Source: an uncultured Thiotrichales bacterium (GTDB lineage: Bacteria > Pseudomonadota > Gammaproteobacteria > CAZUMV01). From it: a stretch of DNA of 44,338 nucleotides. This document shows positions 9,562 through 26,386 of this stretch, one piece after another. Each line of letters opens with the position of its first letter. Positions within the stretch are counted from its first letter, which is position 1. The notes below the pieces were generated by a model that searched no databases, was not told where the DNA came from, and saw only the letters and a list, made by a program, of their open reading frames with translations. A program made the translations under genes and the position numbers. The stretch covers positions 1 through 44,338 of the forward strand of contig CALISW010000170.1 of the NCBI GenBank assembly GCA_938041655.1. Direction: 5' to 3'.

Positions 9562-10587
9562 ATGTTAATTAGAATTTTAATCACTCTGTTGGTTTTAAGT
9601 TCTCCTGTTACTCAGGCTGGCTGGTATGAAGTTGATACCACGCTGATGGGAACAGACGTGCATGTCTCTGCCTGGCACAAGCATGATCAACAGGCGCAGA
9701 AAGCAGTCGAGAGCGCGTTAACAGAAATGCGTCGGATCAATGCCTTGATGAGCACCTATGAATCCAGTTCTGAATTGTCCTTACTCAATCGAGAAGCCTC
9801 TCAGCAGGCAACCGTTGTATCTGACGAATTGTTGCAATTGATCAACCGCTCTCTTGAGATTTCAAAAAGTACCCATGGTGCTTTTGATGTGACCTATGCA
9901 TCAATAGGCTATTTGTATGATTACCGGGCCGGTACCAAACCCGAAGACAAACGCATTCAGGCGCAATTACCTGCTGTAAACTACGAGCACGTTGTAATCG
10001 ATGAGCAGGCAAACACGGTTGCTTATTCACATCCAGGCGTTCGAGTGGATCTGGGTGGTATTGCCAAGGGCTATGCGGTTGATCGATCGATTGAGATCAT
10101 CAAGCAGCACGGGATAGAAAATGCAATCGTAACGGCTGGTGGCGATACGCGTGTCTTGGGTAAAAAACTGGATCGTCCGTGGGTGGTTGGCATACAAAAC
10201 CCGCGTTCCGAGAAAGATGTAGTTGCCGTTATTCCATTGGTGAATGAATCTATTTCTACCTCGGGTGATTATGAGCGTTATTTTGATGATGAGGGTATAC
10301 GCTACCATCATATTATCGATCCCCAAACCGGTGACTCAGCCCGCGAGGTTAGAAGTGTCTCTATTCTCGGGAAAGAAAGTACCTACGCCGATGCATTGTC
10401 GACCAGCCTGTTTGTGTTGGGTCTGGATTCGGGGATGCAGTTAATTAATACAATTCATGGCTATGAAGCCATTCTGGTTGACCAGGAAGGTCGACTTCAT
10501 TATTCAAGAGGTCTGCAGCAATTTGCTGAGCAAGACCAACAACACGATGCGCTGGCCGGGAAGGTTAGTCAACTCGTTAATCAGTGA
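9562..10587 (+). CDS. apbE: FAD:protein FMN transferase (ApbE), exported
   Basis: Transfers FMN from FAD to a Ser/Thr of target proteins in the periplasm, making covalently flavinylated redox proteins. 341 residues with a cleavable signal peptide (cut after SPVTQA) and no lipobox Cys, so probably soluble. Family motifs present: TLMGTDVHV, the MSTYESSSELSLLN segment, VDLGGIAKGYAVD, GGDTRVLG, HHIIDPQTGDSA and the metal-site region STYADALSTSLFVLG. First gene of the long operon; the ATG at 9562 has only a weak ribosome site. Its target is probably another operon product; the DUF3570 protein carries the best-matching motif seen. Confidence 0.94.
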   Translation: MLIRILITLLVLSSPVTQAGWYEVDTTLMGTDVHVSAWHKHDQQAQKAVESALTEMRRINALMSTYESSSELSLLNREASQQATVVSDELLQLINRSLEISKSTHGAFDVTYASIGYLYDYRAGTKPEDKRIQAQLPAVNYEHVVIDEQANTVAYSHPGVRVDLGGIAKGYAVDRSIEIIKQHGIENAIVTAGGDTRVLGKKLDRPWVVGIQNPRSEKDVVAVIPLVNESISTSGDYERYFDDEGIRYHHIIDPQTGDSAREVRSVSILGKESTYADALSTSLFVLGLDSGMQLINTIHGYEAILVDQEGRLHYSRGLQQFAEQDQQHDALAGKVSQLVNQ

Positions 10588-10603
10588 GATGGTGGTATTA
10601 GAT

Positions 10604-13411
10604 ATGAAAGCATTAAACAATAAAATTAAAACGTTGAGCCTGTTGGTACTAGTCACTTTGCTGGCTGCTTGTTACGGCGGTTCAGGTGACGGAAATGGAA
10701 ACGAAGTAGCACTCGATGGCAGTACTGTGGGTGAAAGTGACACTGATAGTGGTTCACTGGTGAATGCCGACTTCTCGATTGCCTATGTAGACAGATCAGT
10801 AGAGTCTGCTGGTAACCCAACTGATGGCATTATCTTTAACCCGGGTGGTGATCTGTTTGTGAAAGATTTGTCATCGCCGAATGCCACTGAAAAAAATATA
10901 ACTGGCGAATACACGCAAGGTGAAGGCGATGTCTCTGACCCTGAAGTGTCTTATGACGCGAAAACCTTGTTGTTCAGTATGCGTGGCGCTGAGGATGAGA
11001 CCTGGAATTTGTGGGAGTATGAGCTTGAAACCGAAGAGCTGACTCGGGTCATTGCTGATGATTTGCTGGCCGACGAAGGCGATGATGTTGATGCCGCCTA
11101 TTTGCCGGATGGTCGAATCGTGTTCAGCTCCAATCGCCAGGAAAAAAGCAAACAAATGCTGGCGGCAGAAAATAAAGAAACCTATGCCTATCTCGATGAA
11201 TATGAGCGAGAGCGAACGATCGCCTTGCACGTAGTTAATCAGGGACGTGATCAGGTAAAGCAAATCTCTTTTAACCAGAGCCATGATCGTAACCCGACCG
11301 TCTTGAGCAGTGGCGAGATCATGTACTCACGTTGGGATCATGTTGGTAACCGTAATCACTTCCCGTTATTTTTTACCAACCCTGACGGCACCAGTATGTT
11401 TGTCTTGTATGGTTCTTTCAGTCCGGGTAATTCTTTTCTGCATCCGCGTGAAATGCCGGACGGCAAAGTTATTTCGTCTTTGATGCCGTTATCAGGTACG
11501 GGCGAGGGTGGTGCGTTAGTGATCATCGATGTCGATAACTTTTCTGAAAATAATGAACCTTCACCTGAATATACCGGTGAAGACGAGCAAGGTCAGGTAA
11601 GCGCTACCTTGAATGAAATACCGATTGGTGAAGAAACCTCCGAATTCGGTCGTTACTCAACACCTTATCCATTATGGGATGGCACCAATCGAGTGCTGGT
11701 CTCATGGACTGCGGCGCAAGAGCCGGATGAAGATGACATGATGATGGGTGAAGATGGGCCGCCACGTTACGGCATCCATATGCTTAATCTCGATGACACT
11801 TCACTTCGTCCTATCGCGCTCGCTGCAGAAGGACGAATCCTGACTGACCCAATCGCCATATTCCCACGTGACTTACCCAATGTGGTAGCGGACAAAACTC
11901 TTGATGCTGACTTGATCGCCGAGAACGCAGGAATTCTTAATGTAAAAAGTGTCTACGACACAGACTTCCTCGACATCATGGGTGATCGGGTACTGACCAG
12001 TAGTGAAGTTATTCCTAAAGCTGATGATGTGGCCGACTTGTTAACTCTCAAGCAAGCGAGTGCCGCGTCAAGACCCGCCAGATTTGTTCGCGTCAGTCGC
12101 GCAGTACCAACACCACCAGGTGTAATGACCGAAGATGTTGGTAACAATGAGATGGAGATGCAGGAAATTCTTGGCTACAGCACGGTTGAACCGGATGGTT
12201 CGTTGCGCATAAAAGTACCGGCTGATACGCCACTGGCACTAGCAGTAGTCGATGCCAAAGGTCGTGCTTTACAATCACACACCAACTGGTTGCAAGTGCG
12301 TCCCGGTGAAACCAGAACCTGCAATGGCTGTCATTCGCCACGTCGTGGCAGCGCAATCAACAGTGCTCCGATCGCGGGCGACCATAGCGGCACCAATTTT
12401 GCCGGCATGGAAGCCTTGGGTGAGACTATGGCTGAAACCCGCACTCGACTCGATGTTGATAGTATGGCGTTGAAAGCGGATATCGAATACGAAGATATTT
12501 GGACTATGGCCGCGGATGTTCCGGATTTGGCCTTTAGTATCACGTATGCAAATCTGCAAACACCAGCGCCCGCTAACGGCATTATTAATTATGTCGATCA
12601 TATTCAACCGATTTGGGATTTACACAACTGTGGTGGTTGTCATACCGGCGCAAATGGTACCTTGGATTTAAACAGCACGACCTCGGCAACTGGCAGACTG
12701 GCTTCCTTTGAGCAATTAACTCTGGGTGTACCGGAGCTGGATGAGGATGGCTTACCTCTGACGCGAATCGAAGAAGGCGAAATCATGGTGGTGCGTGCAC
12801 CGGCATTGGTGGAAATGGGCTCTTCTGATGAAAGTTCGCGTACCAGTCATTTGATCGAAAAACTCTATCAAACCGAGCTGCGTGCGGAACAAGCGCTAAC
12901 CGCTACTACGGTGAATCATTCGGGTATCTTGAATGATTCAGAATTGCGCCTGGTACAGGAATGGATCGATATTGGCGCGCAGTATTACAACAGTCCCTAT
13001 GAGGACGATGCCGGTAATGACAATTTTTATGCGCTCAATGAGATACGTAACTTCCCGGTCGGGCTGGATGAAGATGTGTTCGAGTCAGCGGTGCAGCCGG
13101 TGTTACTCAATCGTTGTGGTGGTTGCCATAGTGCTGTGGGTAGTGAAGGCGAACAAAATACAAATTTCTCGGCGCGCAAATTTGTGCTGACCGGTAGCGT
13201 CGAAGGAGATTTCAACATCACCCGTTCTTTGGTGAATGATATTTGTAATCCACAAAACTCACAGTTGTTGATTATGCCGACTATCATTCAGCAGGGTATT
13301 CTTGTGCATCCTGCGGTGGAAGGTGCACCTGTGCTATCAAGCAACGAAAATGATTACCAGACAATTCTGGCATGGATAGAAGATGCAGCTGCGCTCAATA
13401 ATTGTCCTTAG
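10604..13411 (+). CDS. Tri-haem PD40/beta-propeller lipoprotein resembling hydrazine synthase alpha subunit
   Basis: A 935-residue exported protein. From the ATG at 10604 a signal peptide ends in lipobox LLAAC, followed by a Gly/Asp-rich spacer. Residues about 50-400 hold TolB/PD40-type repeats (SYDAKTLLFSMR, YLPDGRIVFSSNR, LSSGEIMYSRW). Three CxxCH haem c sites follow at residues about 573, 676 and 838 (12320-12334, 12629-12643, 13115-13129). The first lies in the PGETRTCNGCH context typical of hydrazine-synthase-alpha-like proteins. That resemblance indicates fold and haem attachment, not hydrazine chemistry. Likely an outer-membrane or periplasmic electron carrier or oxidoreductase. The frame extends upstream to 10457, but that part overlaps apbE and lacks a signal peptide. 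Confidence 0.82.
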   Translation: MKALNNKIKTLSLLVLVTLLAACYGGSGDGNGNEVALDGSTVGESDTDSGSLVNADFSIAYVDRSVESAGNPTDGIIFNPGGDLFVKDLSSPNATEKNITGEYTQGEGDVSDPEVSYDAKTLLFSMRGAEDETWNLWEYELETEELTRVIADDLLADEGDDVDAAYLPDGRIVFSSNRQEKSKQMLAAENKETYAYLDEYERERTIALHVVNQGRDQVKQISFNQSHDRNPTVLSSGEIMYSRWDHVGNRNHFPLFFTNPDGTSMFVLYGSFSPGNSFLHPREMPDGKVISSLMPLSGTGEGGALVIIDVDNFSENNEPSPEYTGEDEQGQVSATLNEIPIGEETSEFGRYSTPYPLWDGTNRVLVSWTAAQEPDEDDMMMGEDGPPRYGIHMLNLDDTSLRPIALAAEGRILTDPIAIFPRDLPNVVADKTLDADLIAENAGILNVKSVYDTDFLDIMGDRVLTSSEVIPKADDVADLLTLKQASAASRPARFVRVSRAVPTPPGVMTEDVGNNEMEMQEILGYSTVEPDGSLRIKVPADTPLALAVVDAKGRALQSHTNWLQVRPGETRTCNGCHSPRRGSAINSAPIAGDHSGTNFAGMEALGETMAETRTRLDVDSMALKADIEYEDIWTMAADVPDLAFSITYANLQTPAPANGIINYVDHIQPIWDLHNCGGCHTGANGTLDLNSTTSATGRLASFEQLTLGVPELDEDGLPLTRIEEGEIMVVRAPALVEMGSSDESSRTSHLIEKLYQTELRAEQALTATTVNHSGILNDSELRLVQEWIDIGAQYYNSPYEDDAGNDNFYALNEIRNFPVGLDEDVFESAVQPVLLNRCGGCHSAVGSEGEQNTNFSARKFVLTGSVEGDFNITRSLVNDICNPQNSQLLIMPTIIQQGILVHPAVEGAPVLSSNENDYQTILAWIEDAAALNNCP

Positions 13412-13901
13412 TATAAGTCTGTTTTTTGCCGCCTGTGAGGTGGTAGATTCAGTTGATGAGAATCTGGCTGTTACCGGACGCAGTTTGTGTTTGAGTGATT
13501 ATCAGATGTGCATTGATCCGATTTTTCATGCCAACCTGTTGGGTAGTAGCGGCATTATCAATTGTTCATCCAGTGGTTGTCATGACACTGGTGCTGGTTC
13601 GGGTGGTGGCTTTAAATTACACCCAACTCCGGCATTAAATTCCGAGCAAATGCGGTCCAATTTCTTTACCGCACAAGCGTTTGCCAATTTTACTGCGGCG
13701 GGTGATTCAAAGCTGGTGCTGGAGCCTCTGACCGGGACTTTTTCGATTACAGGTAGTCATGCTGGAGGAGATATTTTTATTGATCAGACCGATCCATGCT
13801 ACATCGCAATCATCGACTGGGTCTCAAAACAGGTGGCTGATGAAAATAGTGCTGCCTGCGGTGCCTGTACTCCACCGGTTCTCAGCGCCTGCGGCTACTA
13901 G
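13383..13901 (+). CDS. Small lipoprotein with a CX4CH haem-like motif
   Basis: 172-residue lipoprotein (lipobox FFAAC) starting 29 bp inside the end of the PD40 gene, so the two are translationally coupled. It contains one C-S-S-S-G-C-H motif (13563-13583), i.e. four residues between the cysteines rather than two. A CX4CH haem site is known in some multihaem cytochromes. Several more Cys (SLCLSDYQMCIDP, CYIAIIDWV, CGACTPPVLSACGY) could form disulfides. The end pattern DPCYIAIIDWV resembles the terminal segment of cytochrome-like domains in the preceding protein. Function unknown; it probably works with that protein. Confidence 0.75.
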   Translation: MQLRSIIVLSISLFFAACEVVDSVDENLAVTGRSLCLSDYQMCIDPIFHANLLGSSGIINCSSSGCHDTGAGSGGGFKLHPTPALNSEQMRSNFFTAQAFANFTAAGDSKLVLEPLTGTFSITGSHAGGDIFIDQTDPCYIAIIDWVSKQVADENSAACGACTPPVLSACGY

Positions 13902-13937
13902 TTAGCCTGCTTATCAAGTAGAATCTAGGCACTCTAA

Positions 13938-14705
13938 ATGGACTTGAGATCTGTGGTCAGACTGATACAGCCAACAATATTTCTATTGTTGATCTTCATG
14001 CTTAATGTAGGTGCCGCCAATGCGGCTGAAGATCAGTATTTGCGCGTGCAAGTGACAGAGCCCTATCTGGAAATGTATACCGGCCCCGGGCGTGGCTTTC
14101 CGCGTTTCTATTCGGTAGAACGTGGTGAGTGGGTAGAAGTTATCAGCCGCAAGACAGACTGGTTTCAGGTCAGAACCCGCAAAGGTAAAAAGGGTTGGGT
14201 AAAAAGAGCTGAGTTGGAAAAAGCTCGGTCAATGAGTGGCTCACAGCTGGTCTTTGGTGGTAGTGGCGATGGCGACTTCCTGGGCCGTCGCATCGAACTG
14301 GGTTTTGTTACCGGTGTTTTGGAGGACGACCCGTTAATAGGTTTGCGAGCTGCCTGGTATTTGACTGATGGCATCGCACTGGAAGGTGCTTTTTCACATG
14401 TGCCGGGAGAATTCTCACGCTCATTTATTTATTCTGCCAATGTGGTGATGCAGCCCTATCCAGAGTGGAAATATTCTCCTTATGTCTCATTGGGTGCTGG
14501 CACCATAGAAAACGAGCCTAAAGCCACCTTGATTGGTGTGCGTGATACAGACGCTACAGTCTGGAGTGCAGCGCTAGGGGTGCGACGACAAATCTCTGGC
14601 AAGTTTATGTTCAGGCTTGAGGTCAGGGACCACCAGGCGCTGGTGAATTCATTCAATAATCAAAACCTGCTGGAGATCACAGCCGGTGTTTCATTCTTTT
14701 ATTAA
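13938..14705 (+). CDS. Outer-membrane beta-barrel protein with N-terminal SH3 domain
   Basis: 255 residues with a signal peptide (cut near ANAAEDQ). Residues about 35-95 form a bacterial SH3 domain (VTEPYLEMYTGPGRGFPRFYSVERGEWVEV..., then TDWFQVRTRKGKKGWV), often a peptidoglycan- or peptide-binding module. The rest (about 105-255) alternates polar and hydrophobic residues in strands and ends SFFY, fitting an eight-strand OM barrel of the kind shared by myxobacteria and gammaproteobacteria. It precedes a second barrel by 9 bp. The SH3 would lie in the periplasm and could tie the barrel to the wall or to the TPR scaffold. Confidence 0.78.
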   Translation: MDLRSVVRLIQPTIFLLLIFMLNVGAANAAEDQYLRVQVTEPYLEMYTGPGRGFPRFYSVERGEWVEVISRKTDWFQVRTRKGKKGWVKRAELEKARSMSGSQLVFGGSGDGDFLGRRIELGFVTGVLEDDPLIGLRAAWYLTDGIALEGAFSHVPGEFSRSFIYSANVVMQPYPEWKYSPYVSLGAGTIENEPKATLIGVRDTDATVWSAALGVRRQISGKFMFRLEVRDHQALVNSFNNQNLLEITAGVSFFY

Positions 14706-14714
14706 GGTGCTCAA

Positions 14715-15377
14715 ATGATAATAACTACAATCAGGCATGGGGTCGTTTCATTATTGCTGTTGATTTTGTGCTCACCCGTAGCTGTAGTCGCTGCAGAAGA
14801 GATAGAAGATTCACTCGAGGATGTCGAGCAAGTTGTCGTGCCTGAAATTTACCGGCGCGATGTTAAAGCCCCCAAAATTGATGCACGTGATTTCGAAGTA
14901 ACGGCTTATGTGGGTATTTTAAATATGGAGGATTTTGGCGCTAACGCAGTCGGTGGCTTACGCCTTGCTTATCATATTACTGAAGACTTTTTTATGGAGG
15001 CTGGCTTTGGCGCCTCTGAAATCAATGATGATTCGTTTCGACAATTTGGACTCAATGTTTTTCCATCATCACAAGAGTCACTTACTTATTACGATCTGAT
15101 GGTTGGCTACAACGTCTTGCCAGGTGAGTTTTTCTGGGGTGAAAATTATTCTATTCCCAGTGCGCTTTATGTCAGCGCTGGTGCCGGAAGTATGACTTTC
15201 GTGGATGAGGATTTTTTCACTGCCAATTTTGGTTTTGGCGTGCGTGCCCTGATTACCCAGGCGATCAGCGTGCATATAGATTTACGTGATCGGGTGATTT
15301 TTGATTCGGCCATTTTAGGTGATGAAAAAATCACCAATAATCTTGAGTTTACGATCGGTCTGGGCGTGTTTTTCTAG
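14715..15377 (+). CDS. Outer-membrane beta-barrel domain protein
   Basis: 220 residues: signal peptide (cut near VVAAEE), a short acidic stretch, then a barrel-like region from about residue 58 (FEVTAYVGILNMEDFGANAVGGLRLAYHITEDFFMEAGFGAS) to a terminal GVFF with aromatic final residue. The pattern matches the small OM barrels found beside AgmX/PglI-type proteins. It is a paralogue in shape to the preceding SH3-barrel. In the Agl/Glt comparison these two would take the place of GltA/GltB-type barrels; that is inference from context, not from sequence identity I can measure. Confidence 0.75.
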   Translation: MIITTIRHGVVSLLLLILCSPVAVVAAEEIEDSLEDVEQVVVPEIYRRDVKAPKIDARDFEVTAYVGILNMEDFGANAVGGLRLAYHITEDFFMEAGFGASEINDDSFRQFGLNVFPSSQESLTYYDLMVGYNVLPGEFFWGENYSIPSALYVSAGAGSMTFVDEDFFTANFGFGVRALITQAISVHIDLRDRVIFDSAILGDEKITNNLEFTIGLGVFF

Positions 15378-15389
15378 GAGGCCATACTT

Positions 15390-15917
15390 ATGAAAAAATT
15401 TACATTGAAACCAGCGTTACTTAAATACGGTTTATTGGTAATTATTTTACTGGCCCCAGCTATTGTTGCCGGAAAGTCATCTATGGTTGGTAAAGTCGGA
15501 CCTGATTTTGCAGGTTTAAGTTTTGACGGGTATTCACATCGTCTTGATGAGTTTAAAGGCAAAGTGATCATGATTAATTTTTGGGCCAGTTGGTGCGGCC
15601 CCTGCCGTCAGGAAATGCCGCCGCTGGAGCAACTTTATCAGCAGTATCGCAGCCTGGGCTTTGTGATTGTTGGCGTCAATGTCGATGAGAAGCTGGAGCC
15701 GGCAAAGAAAATGCTCGACAAGCTCGGTATTACTTATCCCAATGTTTTTGATAGCGATAATAATATTAGTAAAGGCTATAACGTTAGCGCCATGCCGATG
15801 ACAGTGATTATGGATACCACGGGAACAATCCGTTACGTCCATTACGGCTTCAAATCTGGTTACATGGATAAATACAGCCGCGAAGTGCGCCAGCTGTTAA
15901 CGGAGGCGCAACAATGA
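15390..15917 (+). CDS. TlpA/ResA-like periplasmic thiol-disulfide oxidoreductase
   Basis: 175-residue thioredoxin-fold protein with an N-terminal signal peptide or anchor (about 12-28). The active site WCGPC is at 15591-15605, cis-Pro in the AMPMTVIMD segment, and the preceding FKGKVIMINFWASW is typical of TlpA/ResA. It would reduce or exchange disulfides in the periplasm, e.g. keep haem-binding Cys of c-type cytochromes or the Cys tail of the next gene's product reduced. Excellent AGGAGG ribosome site at about 15376-15381. Overlaps the DUF4266 gene by 4 bp. Confidence 0.92.
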   Translation: MKKFTLKPALLKYGLLVIILLAPAIVAGKSSMVGKVGPDFAGLSFDGYSHRLDEFKGKVIMINFWASWCGPCRQEMPPLEQLYQQYRSLGFVIVGVNVDEKLEPAKKMLDKLGITYPNVFDSDNNISKGYNVSAMPMTVIMDTTGTIRYVHYGFKSGYMDKYSREVRQLLTEAQQ

Positions 15918-16150
15918 AGAAACTTTTTATAATAATTTGTCTGGGCCTGTTGGGCGGTTGTTCAAGTGTTGAGAAAGTACTTTCGCCAGAACCGTGGGTC
16001 ATGCCGTATGAGCGTGGTGAGTTGGCACAACCCATTATGCAGTTTAGTCGCAATCCGCTTTCCGACAAATTCAGGCAACACGTGTTTGATACCCGTGAAG
16101 GTGCACGTGGCGCCGGCGTAACCCAGGGTGGTGGTTGTGGCTGTAATTAG
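15914..16150 (+). CDS. DUF4266 lipoprotein with C-terminal Cys-Gly-Cys tail
   Basis: A 78-residue lipoprotein: signal peptide with lipobox LLGGC (Cys16), a PEPWVMPYERGELAQPIM core, SDKFRQHVFDTREGARGA, and a tail GGGCGCN whose two Cys codons are 16136-16138 and 16142-16144. The pattern fits the DUF4266 family; function unknown. The exposed CGC tail immediately after a TlpA-like gene suggests a thiol, metal or cofactor role. From memory, DUF4266 and DUF3570 genes commonly sit together near apbE; I could not check this. Its end overlaps the DUF3570 start. Confidence 0.82.
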   Translation: MKKLFIIICLGLLGGCSSVEKVLSPEPWVMPYERGELAQPIMQFSRNPLSDKFRQHVFDTREGARGAGVTQGGGCGCN

Positions 16151-17231
16151 ACACAGCAGTGTTATTTTGTTGTTGATGTTGCTCAACCTGGCAACAGCTG
16201 AAACCCTGCCAGAAGACATGGTGCAGTTGATGTACCACAGTTACGACGGTGGTGGTGTTGAAGTGAACGGGCCTGCCTTATTGGTACGCAAAGAATTCAA
16301 AGATCAGTTTTCGGTAAACGCCGGTTACTATCAGGATTCAATCAGCGGCGCTTCGCCAGATGTGATCGCTTCTGCCAGTCCTTATTCTGAAACACGTGAT
16401 GAATTCTCGCTGGGTGTTGATGCGCTGCTGGGAAACAGCCTGGTTTCATTGGGTTATATCAATAGTGATGAAGATGATTATGAAGGGAATAATTTCAGTT
16501 TTGGAATTTCACAAAGTTTCTTTGCGCAGATGACCACAATGAGTCTGGGTTATACGGTAGGACAGGATACGGTCAAGCGAGTAGATAACGACTTCGCTGA
16601 AGATATTGATCGTTATCAATTTAGCGTTGGTCTCACTCAGGTGCTTACCAGCACCATGCTGATGAACCTGACCGCGGAAGGTATTACCGAAGAAGGTTAC
16701 TTAAGTAATCCTTATCGCTCCAAACGGGTGTTTGGCACATTTGCCGGCTCCGAAATTTACCCGCGTACCCGCACCAGTACAGCTTTCGCGGTGCGACTGA
16801 AGAAATTACTCTGGAGCGACGATGCGGCATCAATCAGCTATCGCTATTTTGATGACAGCTGGGATATCGTCTCACACACACTCGAGTTGGGATTCACCAG
16901 AACCTTGAATAATCGCTCGGTCGCCGATCTGGTCTATAGATACTACGACCAAAGCGGTGCTTCATTCTTTAGCAGTGATTTTCAGGGATTGTTTCAATTT
17001 ATGGCGAGTGACAAGGAGCTCAGTACCTATCAAAGTCATACGATAGGATTGAATCTCACTTATGAGTTATTTAACGATTATTTATATGGCTTTGACCGTG
17101 GTGAGCTTGGTTTCGCCTATGATTTTAGAATGAACGAGTACGAAGATTATTTCGCGCCTAATTCTAGTAGCACAGAACCATACGAATTCGATGCAAATGT
17201 ATTCAATATAAATCTGTCACTATTTTACTGA
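16137..17231 (+). CDS. DUF3570 outer-membrane barrel with an ApbE-site-like motif
   Basis: Exported protein of 364 residues, rich in amphipathic strands and ending NINLSLFY with an OM-type terminal aromatic. I chose the GTG at 16137 (preceded by AGGGTGG), which gives a normal signal peptide cut before ETLPEDM; it overlaps the DUF4266 gene by 14 bp. Near the N-terminus YYQDSISGASPD contains D-x-x-S-G-A-S (16335-16355), close to the ApbE modification consensus D-x-x-[ST]-G-A-[ST]. A second SGAS follows a tyrosine-rich segment later (DQSGASFF). Function unknown. A flavin-bearing barrel is an inference to be tested. Confidence 0.8.
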   Translation: MAVIRHSSVILLLMLLNLATAETLPEDMVQLMYHSYDGGGVEVNGPALLVRKEFKDQFSVNAGYYQDSISGASPDVIASASPYSETRDEFSLGVDALLGNSLVSLGYINSDEDDYEGNNFSFGISQSFFAQMTTMSLGYTVGQDTVKRVDNDFAEDIDRYQFSVGLTQVLTSTMLMNLTAEGITEEGYLSNPYRSKRVFGTFAGSEIYPRTRTSTAFAVRLKKLLWSDDAASISYRYFDDSWDIVSHTLELGFTRTLNNRSVADLVYRYYDQSGASFFSSDFQGLFQFMASDKELSTYQSHTIGLNLTYELFNDYLYGFDRGELGFAYDFRMNEYEDYFAPNSSSTEPYEFDANVFNINLSLFY

Positions 17232-17249
17232 CAGAGCAGGAGACGAACA

Positions 17250-17975: not shown

Positions 17976-17991
17976 CCGCCATTTAGCCACT

Positions 17992-19890
17992 ATGAGATTT
18001 ACACGCCAACTTTTGTTGCTTGCAACATGCGTGCTGTTCAGTGCAGCCGCATCTGCAGCAGATGAGCCGGGACCAGAAGACATCATTCTGGATTTACCCT
18101 ATGGCGTAGTTTTGTTTGATTTTTATCAGCAAAATTATTTCACTTCGCTGGTTAACCTGATCAAAGCTCAGAAAGATGACACAGTGCCACAGCACGAAGC
18201 TGAAGCAGAATTGCTGCGCGGCGGTTTATATCTTTCTTATGGTATGCGCGGGCGCGCCGAAGAGATTTTTAAAAATGTTCTTGATATAGAGCCACGTCAG
18301 GACGTCAAGAATAGAGCCTGGTACTACTTGGCGCGTATCGCGTATCAGCGTGGCCTGCCAGAAAATGCACTGTCTTATCTGAGCAAAATCAGAGGTGAGT
18401 TGCCCGATACTCTGGTGGGTCGTGACCAGTTAATGGCGGCGATCATCAATATTCAGCAAGGCGACTTTCTGGACGCCTACAGTGGTTTATCAGACTGGGA
18501 AGGTGAGACCGATATTAAACACTACGTGGAATATAACCGCGGGGTGGCAGCACTAAGACTTGGTGATACTGATAAAGGCACCGACATACTCGATCTGTTA
18601 GGCCGTCAAAAATTCGGCAGTGAAGAATTTGAATTACTGGCATTGAAAGACCGAGCCAATCTCGCGGTAGGGATGCACTTGCTGCGTGAAGAGAGCCCGG
18701 AAAAAGCGCGTTTTTATCTGGACCGCGTACGTCTTAACGGGCCTTTTGCCAATGAGGCTTTGTTGGCAGCGGGTTGGGCTGATGCGCGCAATGAATTCTA
18801 TCAACCGGCGATGATTCCATGGAATGAACTGGCCAGTCGTAATGTACTCGACCCGGCGGTGCAGGAATCCTTATTTGCTATTCCTTATGCAATGGCTAAA
18901 GCAGGTGGTTTTGCACAAGCGGCGGCGGGTTATCAGCAAGCGCTGGATATTTTCCGAGCCGAGCAAGAAAAACTCAAAGCCGGAATTGAGCTGGTAAAAG
19001 AGGGCGGTTATCTGGACGATTTGCTGAGCAGTGCCGAAAAAATTGAAATGGGTTGGCTGCGCGAACTGAAGGTTGTAAATGAGGCACCTCAGCCGTGGTA
19101 CCTGGATGAACTGTTGTCCTCGCATCGGGTACAAGAGTCATTGAAGAATTATCGTGATCTGTTGTTTCTGGATTACAATCTGACAACCTGGGATGAGTCG
19201 ATCGATAGTTTTGATGAAATGCTGACTTTGCGAGAACGTCGATTTGAGACGGTAGTACCCTCGGCGCAGACAAAGTTATCGGATAACGAGCAGGAAAACC
19301 TGCAAAACAAGTTTGCACTATTGAACCAGCTGTATCTGAGTGCCTCTGAAAAAGAGAAGTTACGTTTGCTGGCAACGCCGGCCGAGTTAAAGAAGTTGCA
19401 GCGCTTGGATAAATTACAGCAATTGATTTCAAAACACCCCAATGCAAGAGCGCACGCTTACTTGTTGGGTAGGGTGGATTTTCTGAAGGGAATACTATTT
19501 TGGGATATCTACAACACCCTTGAAAAGCGGGAAAGAAAATCCGGCCGTGCATTGCAGGACCTTGAAACAGAGTTTGAGCAAAGCAGGGAGTTTATCGCAA
19601 GCATCAATCGTTTGATGGCAGATCTGCCTGCCGGGTTCGAAGGTTTTGCAGAAAAAATCCAGGCCAAGCGCTCAGATTTAAGTGGTGCGCGTGAAAAGCT
19701 GGAGACTGTTACGCAAAAGCAAAAAGCACAATTGACCGAGGTTGTGGTGGGTGAGTTGGAGCAACATGTCGCCAGAATTGATGAATTGAAATTACAGGCG
19801 GCTTTTGCATTAGCACAGATCTATGATCAGGATAGTGAAAAAGAAGAGGATGATGACAAGCCTCAAAATAACCGTGGAGTAGCCAGATGA
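17992..19890 (+). CDS. Exported TPR-repeat scaffold protein 1
   Basis: 632 residues. From the ATG at 17992 a signal peptide is cut near ASAADEP; the frame extends upstream to 17923 but overlaps the previous gene and would bury the signal. TPR-like helical repeats are clear at about 65-170 (AEAELLRGGLYLSYGMRGRAEEIFKNVL, AWYYLARIAYQRGLPENALSYLSKI) and around 290-330. The C-terminal 150 residues are coiled-coil-like, ending QAAFALAQIYDQDSEKEE. Probably periplasmic. In the Agl/Glt comparison it would correspond to a GltC/GltD-type TPR protein. Stop overlaps the next ATGATG. Confidence 0.8.
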   Translation: MRFTRQLLLLATCVLFSAAASAADEPGPEDIILDLPYGVVLFDFYQQNYFTSLVNLIKAQKDDTVPQHEAEAELLRGGLYLSYGMRGRAEEIFKNVLDIEPRQDVKNRAWYYLARIAYQRGLPENALSYLSKIRGELPDTLVGRDQLMAAIINIQQGDFLDAYSGLSDWEGETDIKHYVEYNRGVAALRLGDTDKGTDILDLLGRQKFGSEEFELLALKDRANLAVGMHLLREESPEKARFYLDRVRLNGPFANEALLAAGWADARNEFYQPAMIPWNELASRNVLDPAVQESLFAIPYAMAKAGGFAQAAAGYQQALDIFRAEQEKLKAGIELVKEGGYLDDLLSSAEKIEMGWLRELKVVNEAPQPWYLDELLSSHRVQESLKNYRDLLFLDYNLTTWDESIDSFDEMLTLRERRFETVVPSAQTKLSDNEQENLQNKFALLNQLYLSASEKEKLRLLATPAELKKLQRLDKLQQLISKHPNARAHAYLLGRVDFLKGILFWDIYNTLEKRERKSGRALQDLETEFEQSREFIASINRLMADLPAGFEGFAEKIQAKRSDLSGAREKLETVTQKQKAQLTEVVVGELEQHVARIDELKLQAAFALAQIYDQDSEKEEDDDKPQNNRGVAR

Positions 19891-22679
19891 TGAATTTGCT
19901 ACGACACGCGTTAGTGGTGCTCATCCTGTCTTTGACGCTTTCCGCCTGCGGCACCATGAGCAATATGATAGCCAAGGGTGATAAGTCGCCAACCTTGAGT
20001 GATCTGTATGATCGCCCGGTCCCGGTGATCGATGAACAGCCCATCGCCAAAAGTCGTGAGCTGGCAGAGCAATCTTACCGGCAAATGCTGGATCTGGATG
20101 AAGGTTCAGCCATGCGCCCGGAAGCGTTGCGTCGTCTGGCTGATATATTGTCTGACGTTAATGCGATCATGAATGATGATGATGAGCTGGATGAGGTAGC
20201 GCTGGCTGAGGCGACCGGTTTGTACAATGAAGCGCTGGAAAAATATCCTGACTATCGTTCGCGCGACAAAATTCTCTATCAACTCGCTCGAATTAATGAT
20301 CAAAATGGCGATCCGGATAAATCACACCAGTATTTGAACGATTTGGTCGAGCAGTATCCGGAATCCGAATACTTACAAGAAGCCCAGTTCCGACGTGGCG
20401 AGTACCTGTTCATTGAAAAAGAATATACCAGTGCACAAAACGCCTATGAGTCGGTGATTGAGATCGATACGAAAACAAAATTCTACGAGCCGGCGCTCTA
20501 TAAAAAGGGCTGGGCATTGTTCAAGCAGAATGAATATGAACTGGCGGTAAATGAGTTCACTACGATACTGGACCGGCGTGTAGCCAATGGTCAACGTGAT
20601 CTGGAAAAATTATCCCGTCCACAACGCGAGCGTATTGAAGATTCGCTGCGAGCGATCAGCTTAAGCTTCGTCTATCAGGAAGGCGCTGACACCGCGCTGG
20701 AATATTTCACCAAATACGGCGCCAAAAAATATGAGGAGCTGGTGTACGTCAAGCTGGCAGAATATTACATTGATAAAGAACGCTATACCGATGGTGCGGA
20801 AACATACGCAGGCTTCCTGCAGCGTAATCCCTGGCATGAAAATGCGGCTGATTTTCAGGCACAGGTTATAGCGACCCTCAAAGAAGGCAATTTCCCGACC
20901 TTGGAACTGGAGGCTCGTAAAGAGTTTGTCACCTTGTTTGATGTGGAGTCAGAGTATTGGGAATATTATCCGATAGGCGATAATGATCACATTGTGGATG
21001 AAGTGAAAACCAATATTGTTGATTTGGCGAATCATTATCAATCACTGGCACAAAAAGACAGTAACAACGAAGACTATCTGGAAGCCGAGACTTGGTACAA
21101 ACGCTTCCTGAGTTCATTTCCCAAAGACGAAAAAGCACCCGAAATAAATTATTTGCTGGCTGAATCGTATTACCAGAACGAACGTTATCTGGAGTCAGCG
21201 CAGGCGTATGAGCAGGTTGCCTATGAGTATGAAGCGCACCCGAAAGCATCTGAAGCAGGTTATGCAGCCTTGTTGGCCTATCAGGAAGTGGCCAAGTCGA
21301 ATACCAGCGCGTCAGATCCAAAAGTCGGTGATGCTTTTGCTGCCAGCGCCATACGTTTCGAAAAAGCATTCCCTGGTCATCCCAAGGCTGATGAGGTTTT
21401 GGTTAGTGTGGCACAGACCCAGTTTGATGAGCGTAATTATGATCAGGCGATGAAGATTGCGGAACGCTTGTTGAATAAAGATCCAAAGCCAAGTGCGGAA
21501 AATCGCAAAATCGTCTGGACCATTGCTGCCAATACCCAGTTTGAGCGTAAAGCTTATGAAGAGGCTGAAATTGGTTATAGCCAGGCCATAGCCCTGATGG
21601 AGCCGACCGACCCGCTAAAATCAGATTTGACCGAAAACCTGTCGATTGCCGTGTACCGTCAGGGTGAAGCGGCGCGTGATGCTGGTAAAACCCAGGCGGC
21701 TATTGATGCCTTCCTGCGTGTTGCTGCTGTCGCTCCGGGTACTGAAGCGGCGGTCACCGGACAATATGATGCGGCGGTGATATATATAGGTGACAAGAAA
21801 TGGCGCGAAGCAATTCCGATCATGGAATCTTTCCGGGTCAGTTATCCGGGTCATGAGTTGCAGACTGAAGTCGATAAAAATCTGGCTACGGCGTATCTTG
21901 AAACCGACCAGCCAGTTAAGGCTGCGGCCGAGTTCCAGCGTCTGGCACAAACCGGTGAAACAGAAGAGATCCGGCGAGAGGCAATTTTGCAGGCCTCGGA
22001 TTTGTACGCCGAAGGTGGGGAGAACAACCGCTCCATCGCCATGCTTGAACAGTTTGTTAATGACTTCCCAACTCCGGCAGAGCCTGCGATGGAAGCAGCC
22101 TCAAAACTGGCGACTCATTATGAGAAATTATTTGGTCCTCAAGGTGCTTATACCTGGCATGAAAAAGTGCTTGAGTTGAACCGTGGCGGCGGTGCCAATG
22201 ATAGAACTCGTTATTTAGCGGCTAAGTCTACCCTAGCACTGGTTAAGCCAGCGGTAGATGCCTATCAGAGCGTTGCACTAGTGGCGCCATTGAAAGACAC
22301 ATTGCGCCAGAAAAAAGAATTGATGGAAGCGGCGCTGGCAAAATATGCAGATCTTTCGAGTTTTGGAATAGCCGAGATATCAACCGAAGCGGCTTATCAG
22401 ACAGGATTTATCTACGATGATTTCTCGGAAGCCATCATGGACTCGGAACGTCCTGCCAATCTTGATGCTGACGCGCTTGAAGAATACGAGATATTGCTGG
22501 AAGAGCAAGCCGATCCGTTTCTGGAAAATGCTATTGAAGCGCATGAGGTTAACGTCGGTCGTATCAATGAAAATATTTATGATGAGTGGGTCAAAAAGAG
22601 TTTGGCGGATTTGAAAAAGTTATTGCCCGCCCGTTACAACAAAGAGGAGCGAACCAGTGCCGTTATCCGTGTTCACTAA
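19887..22679 (+). CDS. Large TPR-repeat lipoprotein 2
   Basis: 930-residue lipoprotein (lipobox LSAC after a 20-residue signal). Repeats of TPR/BamD-YbgF type run through most of the chain: YNEALEKYPDYRSRDKILYQLARI, KSHQYLNDLVEQYPES, AQNAYESVIEI, AETWYKRFLSSFPKDEKAPEINYLLAESYYQ, and later AIDAFLRVAAVAPGT. It therefore forms a long superhelical periplasmic scaffold, most likely held at the outer membrane. Starts by overlap with TPR1 and overlaps the next gene by 23 bp. Giant TPR proteins (GltD/AgmU, GltI/AgmK) are part of the Myxococcus gliding machine, which is the closest functional comparison. Confidence 0.85.
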   Translation: MMNLLRHALVVLILSLTLSACGTMSNMIAKGDKSPTLSDLYDRPVPVIDEQPIAKSRELAEQSYRQMLDLDEGSAMRPEALRRLADILSDVNAIMNDDDELDEVALAEATGLYNEALEKYPDYRSRDKILYQLARINDQNGDPDKSHQYLNDLVEQYPESEYLQEAQFRRGEYLFIEKEYTSAQNAYESVIEIDTKTKFYEPALYKKGWALFKQNEYELAVNEFTTILDRRVANGQRDLEKLSRPQRERIEDSLRAISLSFVYQEGADTALEYFTKYGAKKYEELVYVKLAEYYIDKERYTDGAETYAGFLQRNPWHENAADFQAQVIATLKEGNFPTLELEARKEFVTLFDVESEYWEYYPIGDNDHIVDEVKTNIVDLANHYQSLAQKDSNNEDYLEAETWYKRFLSSFPKDEKAPEINYLLAESYYQNERYLESAQAYEQVAYEYEAHPKASEAGYAALLAYQEVAKSNTSASDPKVGDAFAASAIRFEKAFPGHPKADEVLVSVAQTQFDERNYDQAMKIAERLLNKDPKPSAENRKIVWTIAANTQFERKAYEEAEIGYSQAIALMEPTDPLKSDLTENLSIAVYRQGEAARDAGKTQAAIDAFLRVAAVAPGTEAAVTGQYDAAVIYIGDKKWREAIPIMESFRVSYPGHELQTEVDKNLATAYLETDQPVKAAAEFQRLAQTGETEEIRREAILQASDLYAEGGENNRSIAMLEQFVNDFPTPAEPAMEAASKLATHYEKLFGPQGAYTWHEKVLELNRGGGANDRTRYLAAKSTLALVKPAVDAYQSVALVAPLKDTLRQKKELMEAALAKYADLSSFGIAEISTEAAYQTGFIYDDFSEAIMDSERPANLDADALEEYEILLEEQADPFLENAIEAHEVNVGRINENIYDEWVKKSLADLKKLLPARYNKEERTSAVIRVH

Positions 22680-23292
22680 AGTTTGTCTCGCTTTGACGCT
22701 GTTTTTTTTGGTAGCTTGTGAAAGCATGCCTTCGTTACCGGGGTCTGGTGGTAATAAAGAAAGTACGGTCAAAATACCTGGTGGGGTTAAGTCTCCACTC
22801 GGTGATGAAGCGACGCTGACGCCAGCTGATCAAGCCATCATGCTCAGGGCAGTGGCAGCTATGGATGCAGGTAATTACGCGGTCGCCATAACTGAATTTA
22901 AAGCACTGTCGGTCAGTAATCCGAAACTGGCAATGCCTTATATCAACCTGGCTATCGCTTATCGTACGCAAGCAGATAGTGATGCGGCGGTGCGCTCAAT
23001 TGCGCAAGCCTTGAAGTTGTCACCGAACAGTCCGGAAGCAAACAATATTCGCGGTGTGCTGTGGCGTGATGCGGGAGAATTTACCAAAGCCAGAGATAGT
23101 TACGCCAAAGCGATTGGCGCCAATGAAGCCTATCTGGATGCCCAGCTGAATCTGGGGATATTGTGTGATTTATATCTACAAGATCTGGCCTGTGCAAAAA
23201 AACACTATGAAAATTACCAGTCCGGAAGTAGTACCGAAGACCGCACGGTTAAAGGGTGGTTGATAGAACTTGAACGCAGGATGAAAAAATAA
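22657..23292 (+). CDS. TPR lipoprotein 3 (GltE/AglT-sized)
   Basis: 211-residue lipoprotein (lipobox LVAC) with three to four TPR units between about 60 and 185 (MDAGNYAVAITEFKALSVSNPKLAMPY, AVRSIAQALKLSPNSPEAN, KARDSYAKAIGANEAYLDAQLNLGIL). It has the GTG start at 22657 with a good AGAGGAG ribosome site, lying 23 bp inside the end of TPR2. Its size and design match small TPR lipoproteins such as GltE/AglT or PilF; PilF is less likely because no pilus genes are near. Its stop shares a base with the next ATG. Confidence 0.82.
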   Translation: MPLSVFTKVCLALTLFFLVACESMPSLPGSGGNKESTVKIPGGVKSPLGDEATLTPADQAIMLRAVAAMDAGNYAVAITEFKALSVSNPKLAMPYINLAIAYRTQADSDAAVRSIAQALKLSPNSPEANNIRGVLWRDAGEFTKARDSYAKAIGANEAYLDAQLNLGILCDLYLQDLACAKKHYENYQSGSSTEDRTVKGWLIELERRMKK

Positions 23293-23651
23293 TGGTTTTC
23301 AGAACCGTATTACAGTTTTTAGCACGATTGAGCTGTTTAATTATGCTCGGCTTACCGATAATATGCGTCGCTGCAGAAGAAGAGCCTGATGACAACCCGG
23401 CTCAGACAGAATATTTTGAAGAAGATGCTGTCCTGAATATGGATGGTATGGCTGTAACCGGTAATCAGGAATTGCCGAAATCTCTGATGATTGTGCCCTG
23501 GCAAGAGCCCGGTGCCGGAGATTTATTTGCAGGTGAATTTGAAAGCTTGATTGATCGGGATCCAGCTACGATTGATCGTACAGAATTTGTAAGAGAACTG
23601 GATTATTACCGCCTGCGTAAAGGTGAGTTTTTAGACCCCGAGAGAGATTAG
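23292..23651 (+). CDS. Small periplasmic protein of unknown function
   Basis: 119 residues with a signal peptide (cut near CVAAEEE), acidic N-terminal part, then VTGNQELPKSLMIVPWQEP and a C-terminal helix-rich RTEFVRELDYYRLRKGEF. No family recognised with confidence. The compact motif ELPKSLMIVPW looks like the conserved core of such a family. It lies between the TPR lipoprotein and the ExbB gene, the same place and size class as GltF in Myxococcus; that is a positional comparison only. Translationally coupled (1-bp overlap) to TPR3. Confidence 0.7.
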   Translation: MVFRTVLQFLARLSCLIMLGLPIICVAAEEEPDDNPAQTEYFEEDAVLNMDGMAVTGNQELPKSLMIVPWQEPGAGDLFAGEFESLIDRDPATIDRTEFVRELDYYRLRKGEFLDPERD

Positions 23652-23692
23652 TTGTAGCGGTAACACGAATAAGAGAATGGAGAACAAGAAAA

Positions 23693-24337
23693 ATGATTGA
23701 TACGGTATTTAAATTTTTTCAGGATGGTGGAGCATTTATGTTTCCAATCGCCATCGTACTTGCACTTGGCTTGGCTATTGCCGTAGAGCGCTGGATTTAT
23801 CTGACCCGCGCACGAGTCAGTAACTTGTTGCGCTGGCGTAAATTACAGCCGATGCTGGAGAAGGGTGAATTACGCTCAGCGTTAAATACTTCCAGTGGTT
23901 CAAACTCGGCAATTGATAAAATCCTCACCTACGGTTTGTCGCGTGCAGCCAATTCAACCAGCAGCGCTGAAGTAGAGATGGCGATGGAAGAGGGCTTGAT
24001 GGAAGTCATGCCGCGTTTGGAAAAAAGAACGCATTATCTTGCCACGCTGGCGAATATTGCGACCCTGCTAGGCCTATTGGGAACCATCATAGGTTTGATT
24101 AAAGCCTTTACCGCCGTGGGTGAAGCGAACCCGGCTGACAAGGCTGATTTATTATCAGCTAGTATATCGGTAGCGATGAACACTACCGCCTTCGGTCTGA
24201 TGGCGGGTATTCCGTTATTGTTATTACATGCCTTGCTCACGACCAAGACCACCACCGTAGTTGATAGTCTGGAAATGGCGACGGTCAGAATTATGAACAT
24301 GATCACTGGCCACTCTGCCAAAGCCAAGCAACAGTAA
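23693..24337 (+). CDS. MotA/TolQ/ExbB proton-channel protein
   Basis: Inner-membrane subunit of a proton-driven motor, 214 residues with three TM helices (about 14-35, 117-141, 155-183). Family motifs are clear: ERWIYL after TM1, LATLANIATLLGLLGTIIGLIKAF in TM2 and SISVAMNTTAFGLMAGIPLLLLH in TM3. It would form the ring around the ExbD dimer. AATGGAGA ribosome site. It is followed by two ExbD genes and a TonB-like gene, so all parts of an energised transmembrane motor are encoded together. AglR of Myxococcus is the best functional comparison; ExbB of iron transport is less likely because no TonB-dependent receptor is near. Confidence 0.93.
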   Translation: MIDTVFKFFQDGGAFMFPIAIVLALGLAIAVERWIYLTRARVSNLLRWRKLQPMLEKGELRSALNTSSGSNSAIDKILTYGLSRAANSTSSAEVEMAMEEGLMEVMPRLEKRTHYLATLANIATLLGLLGTIIGLIKAFTAVGEANPADKADLLSASISVAMNTTAFGLMAGIPLLLLHALLTTKTTTVVDSLEMATVRIMNMITGHSAKAKQQ

Positions 24338-24342
24338 TAAAT

Positions 24343-24897
24343 ATGTCACGACGTCGCAGGCATTCCCGCTACAAGCCGGATACCGAGCTTAACATTACCG
24401 CCTTTATGAACTTGATGGTGGTGCTAGTGCCATTCCTGTTATTGATGGCGGTGTTTACGCGCCTGACAGTCATAGAACTGGCGTTGCCTGGACCGTTGAC
24501 CGATGCAGAGCCTCCGGAAGATCCACCGATTGAGCTGGAACTCGTGATTCGTGAAAACCGTATCGATATTCAAGACCGAGGGTCAGCCTTGTTAGGAGAG
24601 TATCCCAGGGTTGATGGTAAGGATGACTTCAAACCTGTCATAGAGAAATTGCGTCAGGTAAAATCACAGTTCCCTGAGATCGTGACTGCCTCCATTCTGG
24701 CGGAAGACGATGTTCCTTATGACCGCATAGTCCAAGTCATGGAGGTCATGCGTAGCTACAATACTGAAGGGGAAGAGGGCATCATTCAGGAAGAGCTGTT
24801 TCCTGAAATCTCTTTAGGAAAAGCGACGGTGCTTGATTTGCCTGAAGGTGCTCGAGAAATTGTTCAGCCTTACGATACGAGTGAGGCGAGCCAATAA
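24343..24897 (+). CDS. ExbD/TolR-like protein 1 with Asn in place of the TM aspartate
   Basis: 184 residues: short basic cytoplasmic start (MSRRRRHSRY), one TM helix (about 20-44) and a periplasmic domain. Aligning NITAFMNLMVVLVPFLL with the E. coli ExbD segment VTPFIDVMLVLL puts Asn23 (codon AAC, 24409-24411) where ExbD has its essential proton-carrying Asp25. The periplasmic part begins ELALPGP and contains IQDRG...DDFKPVIEKLRQVKSQFPE and a VPYDRIVQVMEVMR helix typical of the family. The substitution suggests that this copy cannot carry protons and pairs with ExbD 2. Separated by 5 bp from ExbB. Confidence 0.9.
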   Translation: MSRRRRHSRYKPDTELNITAFMNLMVVLVPFLLLMAVFTRLTVIELALPGPLTDAEPPEDPPIELELVIRENRIDIQDRGSALLGEYPRVDGKDDFKPVIEKLRQVKSQFPEIVTASILAEDDVPYDRIVQVMEVMRSYNTEGEEGIIQEELFPEISLGKATVLDLPEGAREIVQPYDTSEASQ

Positions 24898-25403
24898 TGC
24901 GACAGTCCAGACGCGCCCGCCGTATGAGCATGCATCATGCTCGAGGAAAAAAGACCCCGGGTTTCAATCTGGTTTCTTTAATGGATATATTTACCATTCT
25001 GGTTTTCTTCTTGTTGGTTAACTCGCAGGAAGTACAAAAAATCCCACCGAACAAAGCCGTGCAGCTTCCAGAATCGAGTATCGATAATAAAACCGACGAT
25101 AGTCTGGTTATTACGATTACTAAAGATGCGTTGCTGGTTGATGGTGATCAAATCGCTACCCTGGAAGAGATTAAGGCTAGCGACTCGTTCGATATTCCTC
25201 AGCTGGTTGCTGCGATGGAAAGCGAGTATGGCAAAAAGCTGATAGCTACCGGTGAAGGCGATAAAACGCCGAAAGTCACCGTCATGGGTGACGGTAGTAC
25301 ACCCTATAATATGTTGCATCGTATTATGCAGTCATTCTCCGGTGTTGATGTAGAAAAGATTTCTATGGCGGTTATTCAGAAAGCTCCCGAGGCTAGCGAA
25401 TGA
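24897..25403 (+). CDS. ExbD/TolR-like protein 2 with conserved TM aspartate
   Basis: 168 residues with a long basic N-terminus (MRQSRRARRMSMHHARGKK), then GFNLVSLMDIFTILVFFLL, where Asp30 (24984-24986) matches ExbD Asp25. The periplasmic domain has VQLPES, a LVITITKDALLVDGDQIA strand pair and YNMLHRIMQSF. Overlaps ExbD 1 by one base and the TonB-like gene by 4 bp. As the only copy with the acidic residue, it is the likely proton acceptor of the motor. Confidence 0.92.
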   Translation: MRQSRRARRMSMHHARGKKTPGFNLVSLMDIFTILVFFLLVNSQEVQKIPPNKAVQLPESSIDNKTDDSLVITITKDALLVDGDQIATLEEIKASDSFDIPQLVAAMESEYGKKLIATGEGDKTPKVTVMGDGSTPYNMLHRIMQSFSGVDVEKISMAVIQKAPEASE

Positions 25404-26386
25404 CAGCAATAGCGTTACAACGACAATCCCTGCCTTGGGATATATCGACAGAAGATGAAGTCCTGCTGCGCAAGCTGGTCAGTATCTTTCTGGCGATCGT
25501 TGTATTGTTTACCTTGTTGTTTATGTTAATAACGCTCCCGGAAAAAGAAAAGCCACCAGAAGCAGTACCTGAAAATCTGGTGAAAATTATTCTTGAAAAA
25601 CAAGTGCGGCCGCCACCACCAAAACCCGAGCCCAAGCCGGTGGAGCAGCCAAAACCTGAGCCCAAGCCCAAGCCGGAACCCAAACCTGAGCCGAAGCCAC
25701 AGCCCAAGCCGCCACCAAAGCCGGTTGAGCGCCCCAAGCCTGTGCCGACACCTGCACCAACGCCAGCGCCACCATCGGCGCGGCAGCAGGCAGAGAGCGC
25801 TATTTCGGTGTTTGAAGAACTGAATGATATGCGTAACGATAATGTACGAGCCAGCATTGATAATGATATTAATGCGAATGCTGGTACTGCAGCCGGTAGT
25901 AATGAGCGCAGTATGATTACCTCGGCGGCAGGTCGTGCCAGTGGCGGCATCAATAATGCTGAATACAGCCGTGGCACCGGTGGTGGTGGAAGTTTAAGTG
26001 GTTCTGCCGGCAGTAGTCGGGTGGAAAGTAATATCGGTGGCAGCGGCGGTGGAGGCAGTAATAAAGGTTCCGGTGGTTCTGGTTCCGACAGGAAATTCAA
26101 GCGCAGCGAAGAAGAAGTGCAGATCGTATTCGACAGGAATCGTGGTTCCTTTGATCGAACTTACGCACGGGCTTTAAGAGATGATCCGGCCTTGCAAGGC
26201 AAGGTAGTCTTTACCCTTACCATTGAGCCTAACGGCTCTGTATCCAGTTGTACTATCGCATCGAGTGAGCTAAGGAACCCTGAGCTTGAACGCAAATTGG
26301 TCGTGAAAGTGAAGCAATTGAAGTTCGCGAGTAAGGATGTGTTGAGAACTACAGTTAATTATCCCATAGATTTTTTCCCTTCTTGA
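25400..26386 (+). CDS. TonB-like energy transducer with AgmX/PglI C-terminal domain
   Basis: 328 residues: cytoplasmic start, one TM helix (about 26-46), a Pro/Lys/Glu-rich spacer (about 70-125, KPEP and KP repeats), a Gly/Ser-rich linker (about 190-230) and a folded C-terminal domain (about 232-328) with VQIVFDRNRGSFDRTYARALRDDPALQGKV, FTLTIEPNGSVSSCTIASSEL and a final VNYPIDF. This is the AgmX/PglI (GltJ/GltG) type of TonB-like end. The spacer can cross the periplasm, so the protein probably passes motor force from ExbB/ExbD to outer-membrane partners encoded in the operon. Last gene of the unit. Overlapping frames on both strands here are low-complexity shadows. Confidence 0.88.
   Translation: MTAIALQRQSLPWDISTEDEVLLRKLVSIFLAIVVLFTLLFMLITLPEKEKPPEAVPENLVKIILEKQVRPPPPKPEPKPVEQPKPEPKPKPEPKPEPKPQPKPPPKPVERPKPVPTPAPTPAPPSARQQAESAISVFEELNDMRNDNVRASIDNDINANAGTAAGSNERSMITSAAGRASGGINNAEYSRGTGGGGSLSGSAGSSRVESNIGGSGGGGSNKGSGGSGSDRKFKRSEEEVQIVFDRNRGSFDRTYARALRDDPALQGKVVFTLTIEPNGSVSSCTIASSELRNPELERKLVVKVKQLKFASKDVLRTTVNYPIDFFPS
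25606..25775 (+). repeat. Pro/Lys/Glu codon repeats in the TonB-like gene
   Basis: Imperfect tandem units coding for KPEP and KP(K/Q)P, made of AAGCC/CCNAAG/GAGCC words. They form the periplasm-crossing rod and are likely length-variable by slippage. Confidence 0.7.

Follow-up and report, generated by a model that had tools for sequence, protein, structure and literature searches.

A gliding-motor-like envelope core adjoining a flavin/haem/thiol redox module in gammaproteobacteria

Many gammaproteobacteria carry a gliding-motor-like machine side by side with flavin, haem and thiol proteins of the outer membrane. In the 44,338-nucleotide stretch of DNA analysed here (the window), one operon-like run combines a flavin/haem/thiol set with an envelope-spanning motor of the TolQ/TolR type and its TonB-like transducer, an arrangement that the initial annotation had pointed out and that stands. 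The 17 genes of the run form two conserved modules, a redox module (g2 to g8 plus ApbE, g1) and a motor module (g9 to g17), and because the gene order recurs in more than 20 family-level groups, it is far beyond chance. The motor core and the ApbE/DUF3570/DUF4266/thioredoxin cluster are each known already (PMC3169522; PMC8238504), and it is their coupling that appears to be new. Text searches of the main texts of openly accessible papers found none that joins the motor core and the flavinylation set, and neither flavin nor cytochrome comes up in a survey of force transducers from 2025 (PMC12204202). Our best explanation, offered tentatively and with somewhat less than even confidence, is a composite of two evolutionary modules, in which an envelope machine driven by the proton motive force would act on a flavin/haem outer-membrane complex. 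The tight and widely conserved partnership gives motor and redox set each a testable partner, and if the explanation is true, gliding-related force-transducing motors serve electron transfer at the outer membrane, of which there is no report in the literature searched.

Layout of the locus

The series of open reading frames between 9562 and 26386 is unbroken, with all 17 on the + strand and overlapping or at most 41 bp apart (ORF listing), which agrees with the close-packed, single-stranded run described earlier. The listed starts of g2 and g10 are too far upstream, and by inspection they are likely near 10604 and 17992. Within the run, a promoter scan gave nothing convincing (28 promoter-like sites, 27.2 expected), and a terminator scan gave 26 terminator-like sites (16.8 expected) with no strong match at a + strand gene gap. 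No family match in Pfam or NCBIfam was obtained for g3, g9 and g13. The genes are as follows.

9562..10587, + strand: g1, ApbE, periplasmic FAD:protein FMN transferase (PF02424, 288.7 bits; signal-peptide-like N-terminus)
10604..13411, + strand: g2, haem lipoprotein (lipobox LAAC) carrying three CxxCH and, in its middle, a hydrazine-synthase-alpha domain (PF18582, HZS_alpha, 70.4 bits; PDB 5c2v_A, E 5.7e-13; start by inspection)
13383..13901, + strand: g3, small lipoprotein whose single haem-type motif, CX4CH, is kept in most homologues (sequence; no Pfam match)
13938..14705, + strand: g4, SH3 domain plus outer-membrane barrel (PF08239, SH3_3, 36.1 bits; weak OMP_b-brl; weak TIGR04565)
14715..15377, + strand: g5, outer-membrane barrel OMP_myx_plus (TIGR04565, 132.6 bits, cut-off 60)
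15390..15917, + strand: g6, TlpA/ResA-like thiol-disulfide protein with WCGPC (PF00578, AhpC-TSA, 90.3 bits; ResA model 113.6)
15914..16150, + strand: g7, DUF4266 lipoprotein with C-terminus GGGCGCN (PF14086, 79.0 bits; C-terminal CGC conserved)
16128..17231, + strand: g8, DUF3570, predicted outer-membrane barrel of 16 strands bearing SGAS at residues 73-76 and 276-279 (PF12094, 144.8 bits; model pLDDT 89.8)
17250..17975, + strand: g9, start of the motor module, a periplasmic protein with a coiled coil and a beta-sandwich (conserved in 93 loci; model pLDDT 84.5)
17992..19890, + strand: g10, TPR protein (TPR matches, alignment; start by inspection)
19887..22679, + strand: g11, large TPR lipoprotein with lipobox LSAC (TPR_6, 79.0 bits; YbgF-type TPR model 137.7)
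22657..23292, + strand: g12, small TPR lipoprotein with lipobox LVAC (TPR_16, 45.8 bits; GltE only 32.3 of 225)
23292..23651, + strand: g13, small secreted protein with motif GNxELPKxLxIVPWK (alignment)
23693..24337, + strand: g14, ExbB/TolQ-type motor subunit (PF01618, MotA_ExbB, 97.1 bits)
24343..24897, + strand: g15, ExbD/TolR-type subunit 1 (PF02472, 54.2 bits)
24897..25403, + strand: g16, ExbD/TolR-type subunit 2 (PF02472, 51.4 bits)
25400..26386, + strand: g17, TonB-like transducer with AgmX/PglI C-terminal domain (NF033768, 66.3 bits, cut-off 40; TonB_Cterm 27.9, cut-off 27.1)

The 5' neighbours of the locus belong to ordinary metabolism (citrate synthase, homoserine dehydrogenase, aminotransferase). 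On the 3' side lie a zinc-ribbon protein and a rhomboid-TPR protein, the latter (26991-28427) with a rhomboid protease domain and a C-terminal TPR-like part.

The motor core and its relatives

The motor module opens with the coiled-coil/beta-sandwich protein g9, followed by three TPR proteins and a small protein; one ExbB, two ExbD and the TonB-like protein, which bears an AgmX/PglI tail, complete it. The matches listed above bear out the initial annotation with regard to one TolQ/ExbB and two TolR/ExbD, three TPR proteins (two of them, g11 and g12, lipoproteins by their lipobox) and the AgmX/PglI character of g17, which rests on NCBIfam. An ExbB scan yielded 80 loci, almost all of them under a gammaproteobacterial label, in which the nine-gene block g9-TPR-TPR-TPR-g13-ExbB-ExbD-ExbD-TonB is kept almost wherever the sequence extends. 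The model of g9 combines a helix with a beta-sandwich, for which a fold search against the PDB gave no relative with E below 0.001. On g17, plain TonB models are much weaker than the AgmX/PglI model, and the Pfam TonB_C match is sub-threshold. As for Tol-Pal, the TolQ equivalog model scores 56.6 of the 221 required, and TolB and Pal are absent among the 17 products.

Because of its AgmX/PglI tail, g17 is tied to the Glt/Agl transducer family. The window resembles Agl/Glt and Nfs of Myxococcus in this tail and in motor composition (one TolQ, two TolR), but differs from them in that its transducer has no FHA domain and no Group A parts are recognised. The one-to-one mapping onto Glt parts drawn in the initial annotation had to be abandoned, as no equivalog cut-off is reached in NCBIfam: g17 scores 36.6 of 450 with GltJ and 22.5 of 650 with GltG, generic TPR models (PilW, Tgl) score higher on g12 than GltE does, and g4, g5, g8, g9 and g13 match none of the Group A models GltA, GltB, GltF and GltH. 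The three barrel-like proteins do look like barrels, but they are part of the redox module; when the modules separate, both small barrels go with the redox module rather than with the motor. These scores and the movement of the small barrels speak against the part-by-part mapping, and at the level of sequence the name 'Glt-like core' is fair while 'Glt machine' is not.

By composition only, seven genes are of the right kinds for Luciano Group B (gltC, D, E, G; aglR, Q, S) and stand in one conserved cluster; as in the Luciano core complex, one TolQ-type, two TolR-type, one TonB-like and three TPR genes are found together with extras. That core has been reported as widespread in gammaproteobacteria, often with several paralogues per genome and with no function assigned (Luciano et al. 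2011, PMC3169522), so that its occurrence alone in this class is, as the initial annotation noted, not new. It has also been described as insufficient for motility, with Glt and Nfs as its specialisations in Myxococcus (PMC3169522). The core in the window differs in being joined to a flavin/haem/thiol outer-membrane module.

The motor core is a module that can be reused, and linkage to the redox set is one of its specialisations, because 14 of 81 motor loci (most of them read only a few kb upstream) have no redox neighbour and because paralogues lie by housekeeping genes, genomes with a redox-linked copy often holding such a second copy. Since stand-alone cores and paralogues occur, the core does not depend on the redox set. 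Three paralogues (L123, L124 and L132) are preceded by TlpA plus phosphoribulokinase-like and sulfite reductase-like genes (sequence start only), and others adjoin PNPase/IF2-like or topoisomerase-like genes. In a plasmid search, g11 gave no match and DUF3570 only distant Hymenobacter matches.

The redox module and its predicted flavin barrel

The redox module contains an HZS-alpha-like haem lipoprotein, a cytochrome lipoprotein, two small barrels, TlpA, DUF4266 and DUF3570, plus ApbE. In long stretches of other genomes, the order is HZS-lipoprotein, (cytochrome lipoprotein), SH3-barrel, OMP_myx_plus barrel, TlpA, DUF4266 and DUF3570. As in the published ApbE-DUF3570-DUF4266-thioredoxin clusters, ApbE, an SGAS-bearing DUF3570, a DUF4266 protein with a C-terminal CxC and a thioredoxin-like protein occur together, whereas the HZS-alpha-like haem lipoprotein, the two small barrels and the motor are additions of the window, and its DUF3570 is of a divergent subtype that has no N-terminal Pfam match. 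In the paper on those clusters, the main text says nothing of ExbB, TPR or gliding genes (PMC8238504). DsbD is part of some published clusters; in the source genome it is a single gene on another contig (C84), with none in the locus. It is not required, as 316 published ApbE/DUF3570/DUF4266 clusters are without it (PMC8238504, eLife 2021). The locus holds no inner-membrane electron donor, which counts against the explanation that we favour.

The HZS-like lipoprotein resembles hydrazine synthase alpha around its haem (PDB 5c2v profile match), sharing the middle haem domain and traces of the propeller and the C-terminal domain. It differs in being a lipoprotein with a third haem motif and in reaching 64.5 bits where the equivalog model requires 800, and neither beta nor gamma subunits of hydrazine synthase are found among the 17 products. 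Two to three haem motifs are present in 28 of 28 hits of this family. Beside it, a divergent trio, u1-u2-u3, occurs in L083, L089, L103 and L153-L168, composed of a TAT-signal protein (u1), a CxxCH lipoprotein with a LamG domain (u2) and a CxxCH protein with a weak DUF1585 match (u3). The trio and the CX4CH cytochrome lipoprotein are rarely in the same locus (a single case, L110), which suggests that they replace one another. In L026, from Alkalilimnicola ehrlichii AK92, the HZS-lipoprotein and both small barrels adjoin the motor in a genome (G008) that gives no DUF3570 match in a PF12094 search.

For DUF3570 (g8), structure prediction gives the 16-strand barrel listed above, in which both SGAS motifs lie in loops, after strands 3 and 13 (the first loop with pLDDT near 70), and hence on the same face. 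The N- and C-termini of such barrels are, as a rule, both periplasmic, so in the model the SGAS-bearing face is probably the outer one. Both sites, at 73 and 276, agree with the flavinylation motif [S/T]GA[S/T], and covalent FMN at SGAS, attached by ApbE, is predicted from sequence. In Chlorobium luteolum, flavinylation of a DUF3570 protein by ApbE has been demonstrated experimentally (PMC8238504). Across homologues, site 1 has the strict form in 10 of 44 and an SxAS-like form in 41 of 44; the motif glycine is mostly serine (SSAS 26/44, SGAS 9/44), and site 2 is poorly conserved, both of which count against our explanation. The strict SGAS of the second site is kept in the window's DUF3570 (16128-17231) and mostly not in relatives. 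Fold comparison was rejected as a guide to function: the best PDB match is the PelB exopolysaccharide pore (E 1.7e-9), with a TM of ~0.5 and hundreds of barrels scoring alike. In a sequence search against the PDB, the DUF3570 and g9 profiles gave no meaningful match.

Linkage of the modules and its interpretation

The initial annotation staked its reading of a shared machine in part on the two halves occurring together in other genomes, and they do. In an even sample of 321 genomes from across the Gammaproteobacteria, the motor marker (g10 family, at least 60 bits) is present in 74 and DUF3570 in 85; 63 have both, 11 the motor only, 22 DUF3570 only and 225 neither (odds ratio 59; Fisher p 3e-36, a value that overstates independence, as genomes share ancestry, so that family spread is the better measure). 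In 39 genomes DUF3570 lies within 30 kb of the motor, in 28 of them on the same strand and at most ~2 kb upstream, and in 9 upstream on the opposite strand; the 37 genomes with DUF3570 upstream within 30 kb span 22 family codes (counted by hand). ApbE alone, being present in 231 of the 321 genomes, is uninformative.

The association is strongest in the short DUF3570 subtype (Pfam match starting at position 93 or later), where 50 of 53 cases come from genomes that also have the motor marker, and only mild in the long classical subtype (25/45). Among the three exceptions, one genome (G173) proves to contain the complete locus, its TPR gene having diverged, another (G170) lacks DUF3570 in a re-scan, and the third (G090) has a weak, different-looking DUF3570 set. 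In G090 (L144, L145) this weak set includes DUF4266 and TlpA, and the motor is not seen in the stretches read. On the g10 tree, 5 changes suffice to explain the redox/no-redox label, compared with 13.1 after shuffling, and none of 500 shuffles gave so few; the details of the tree are uncertain because of its long branches. For many loci the sequence was read no further than ~4 kb upstream of g10, so a label of none may mean outside reach.

The redox module lies in some genomes fused to the 5' side of the motor, in others divergent from it, and in others again at a separate site. When it is separate, HZS-lipoprotein, barrels, DUF4266 and DUF3570 remain one unit, while ApbE and usually TlpA stay by the motor. 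In the nearest relative (L083, same family), the redox module is divergent, that is inverted, yet still adjoins the motor. Against the favoured explanation stand the 11 motor-marker genomes without DUF3570 and the Woeseiaceae-type genomes, in which the modules are sometimes on different contigs.

Because the two modules co-occur so faithfully, they probably constitute one surface redox device. The inner-membrane part, one ExbB and two ExbD, would draw on the proton motive force, and the TonB-like protein together with the periplasmic coiled-coil, TPR and small proteins would transmit movement across the periplasm. ApbE would attach FMN covalently to loops of the DUF3570 barrel that lie on a single, probably outer, face. 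This barrel may form an outer-membrane redox assembly with the multihaem HZS-alpha-like lipoprotein, the small cytochrome lipoprotein, the two small barrels and the TlpA/DUF4266 thiol pair, which could be fed by DsbD; electrons would pass from DsbD to TlpA and on to DUF4266, or via the haems, to the flavin barrel. Membrane placement, contact between the modules and direction of electron flow are thus parts of what we infer, and the least supported step is the action of the motor, which would most likely gate, position or refresh the electron-transfer assembly for exchange with something at or outside the cell surface.

It is possible, if rather doubtful, that the locus encodes two separate systems, one an envelope-force machine of a generic kind and the other transferring electrons by flavin and haem, which are merely co-regulated from a common promoter because both are needed under the same condition. 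Motor cores standing alone at many sites and redox modules located elsewhere would fit this. However, adjacency survives inversion in L083, so contiguity is not explained by a shared promoter alone; moreover, genomes lacking the core hardly ever carry the short DUF3570 subtype, and ApbE, which DUF3570 needs, remains by the motor even when DUF3570 has moved away.

The ExbB/ExbD/TonB-like logic would also fit energised uptake, in which motor and transducer drive import of a metal or other ligand through an outer-membrane barrel, the ligand being released by reduction at the surface through the flavin/haem/thiol set, and a VIT1 iron transporter in some published DUF3570 clusters (PMC8238504) accords with it. 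This is unlikely, as neither a TonB-dependent receptor nor a plug domain (Pfam) nor an inner-membrane transporter is found among the 17 products, and the transducer tail is of the AgmX/PglI type rather than plain TonB. We consider quite improbable a surface transport like that of Agl/Glt or Nfs, with an outer-membrane assembly or polymer moved along or around the cell and the redox proteins as cargo or attachment: the AgmX/PglI tail, one TolQ with two TolR, three TPR proteins and the PelB fold match speak for it, but Glt equivalogs and myxobacterial Group A parts are unmatched, the PelB match is generic barrel similarity, and the same kind of core is described as insufficient for motility (PMC3169522). 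Within the composite that we favour, a more far-reaching proposal, which we regard as rather unlikely, is a proton-driven, rotary-type Agl/Exb motor on a flavin-haem conduit, such that proton motive force and mechanical work would directly control electron exchange across the outer membrane, making it a motor-coupled extracellular redox machine, widespread in gammaproteobacteria. In a phylum-wide sample, the nine genomes with a match all belong to one class, Gammaproteobacteria.
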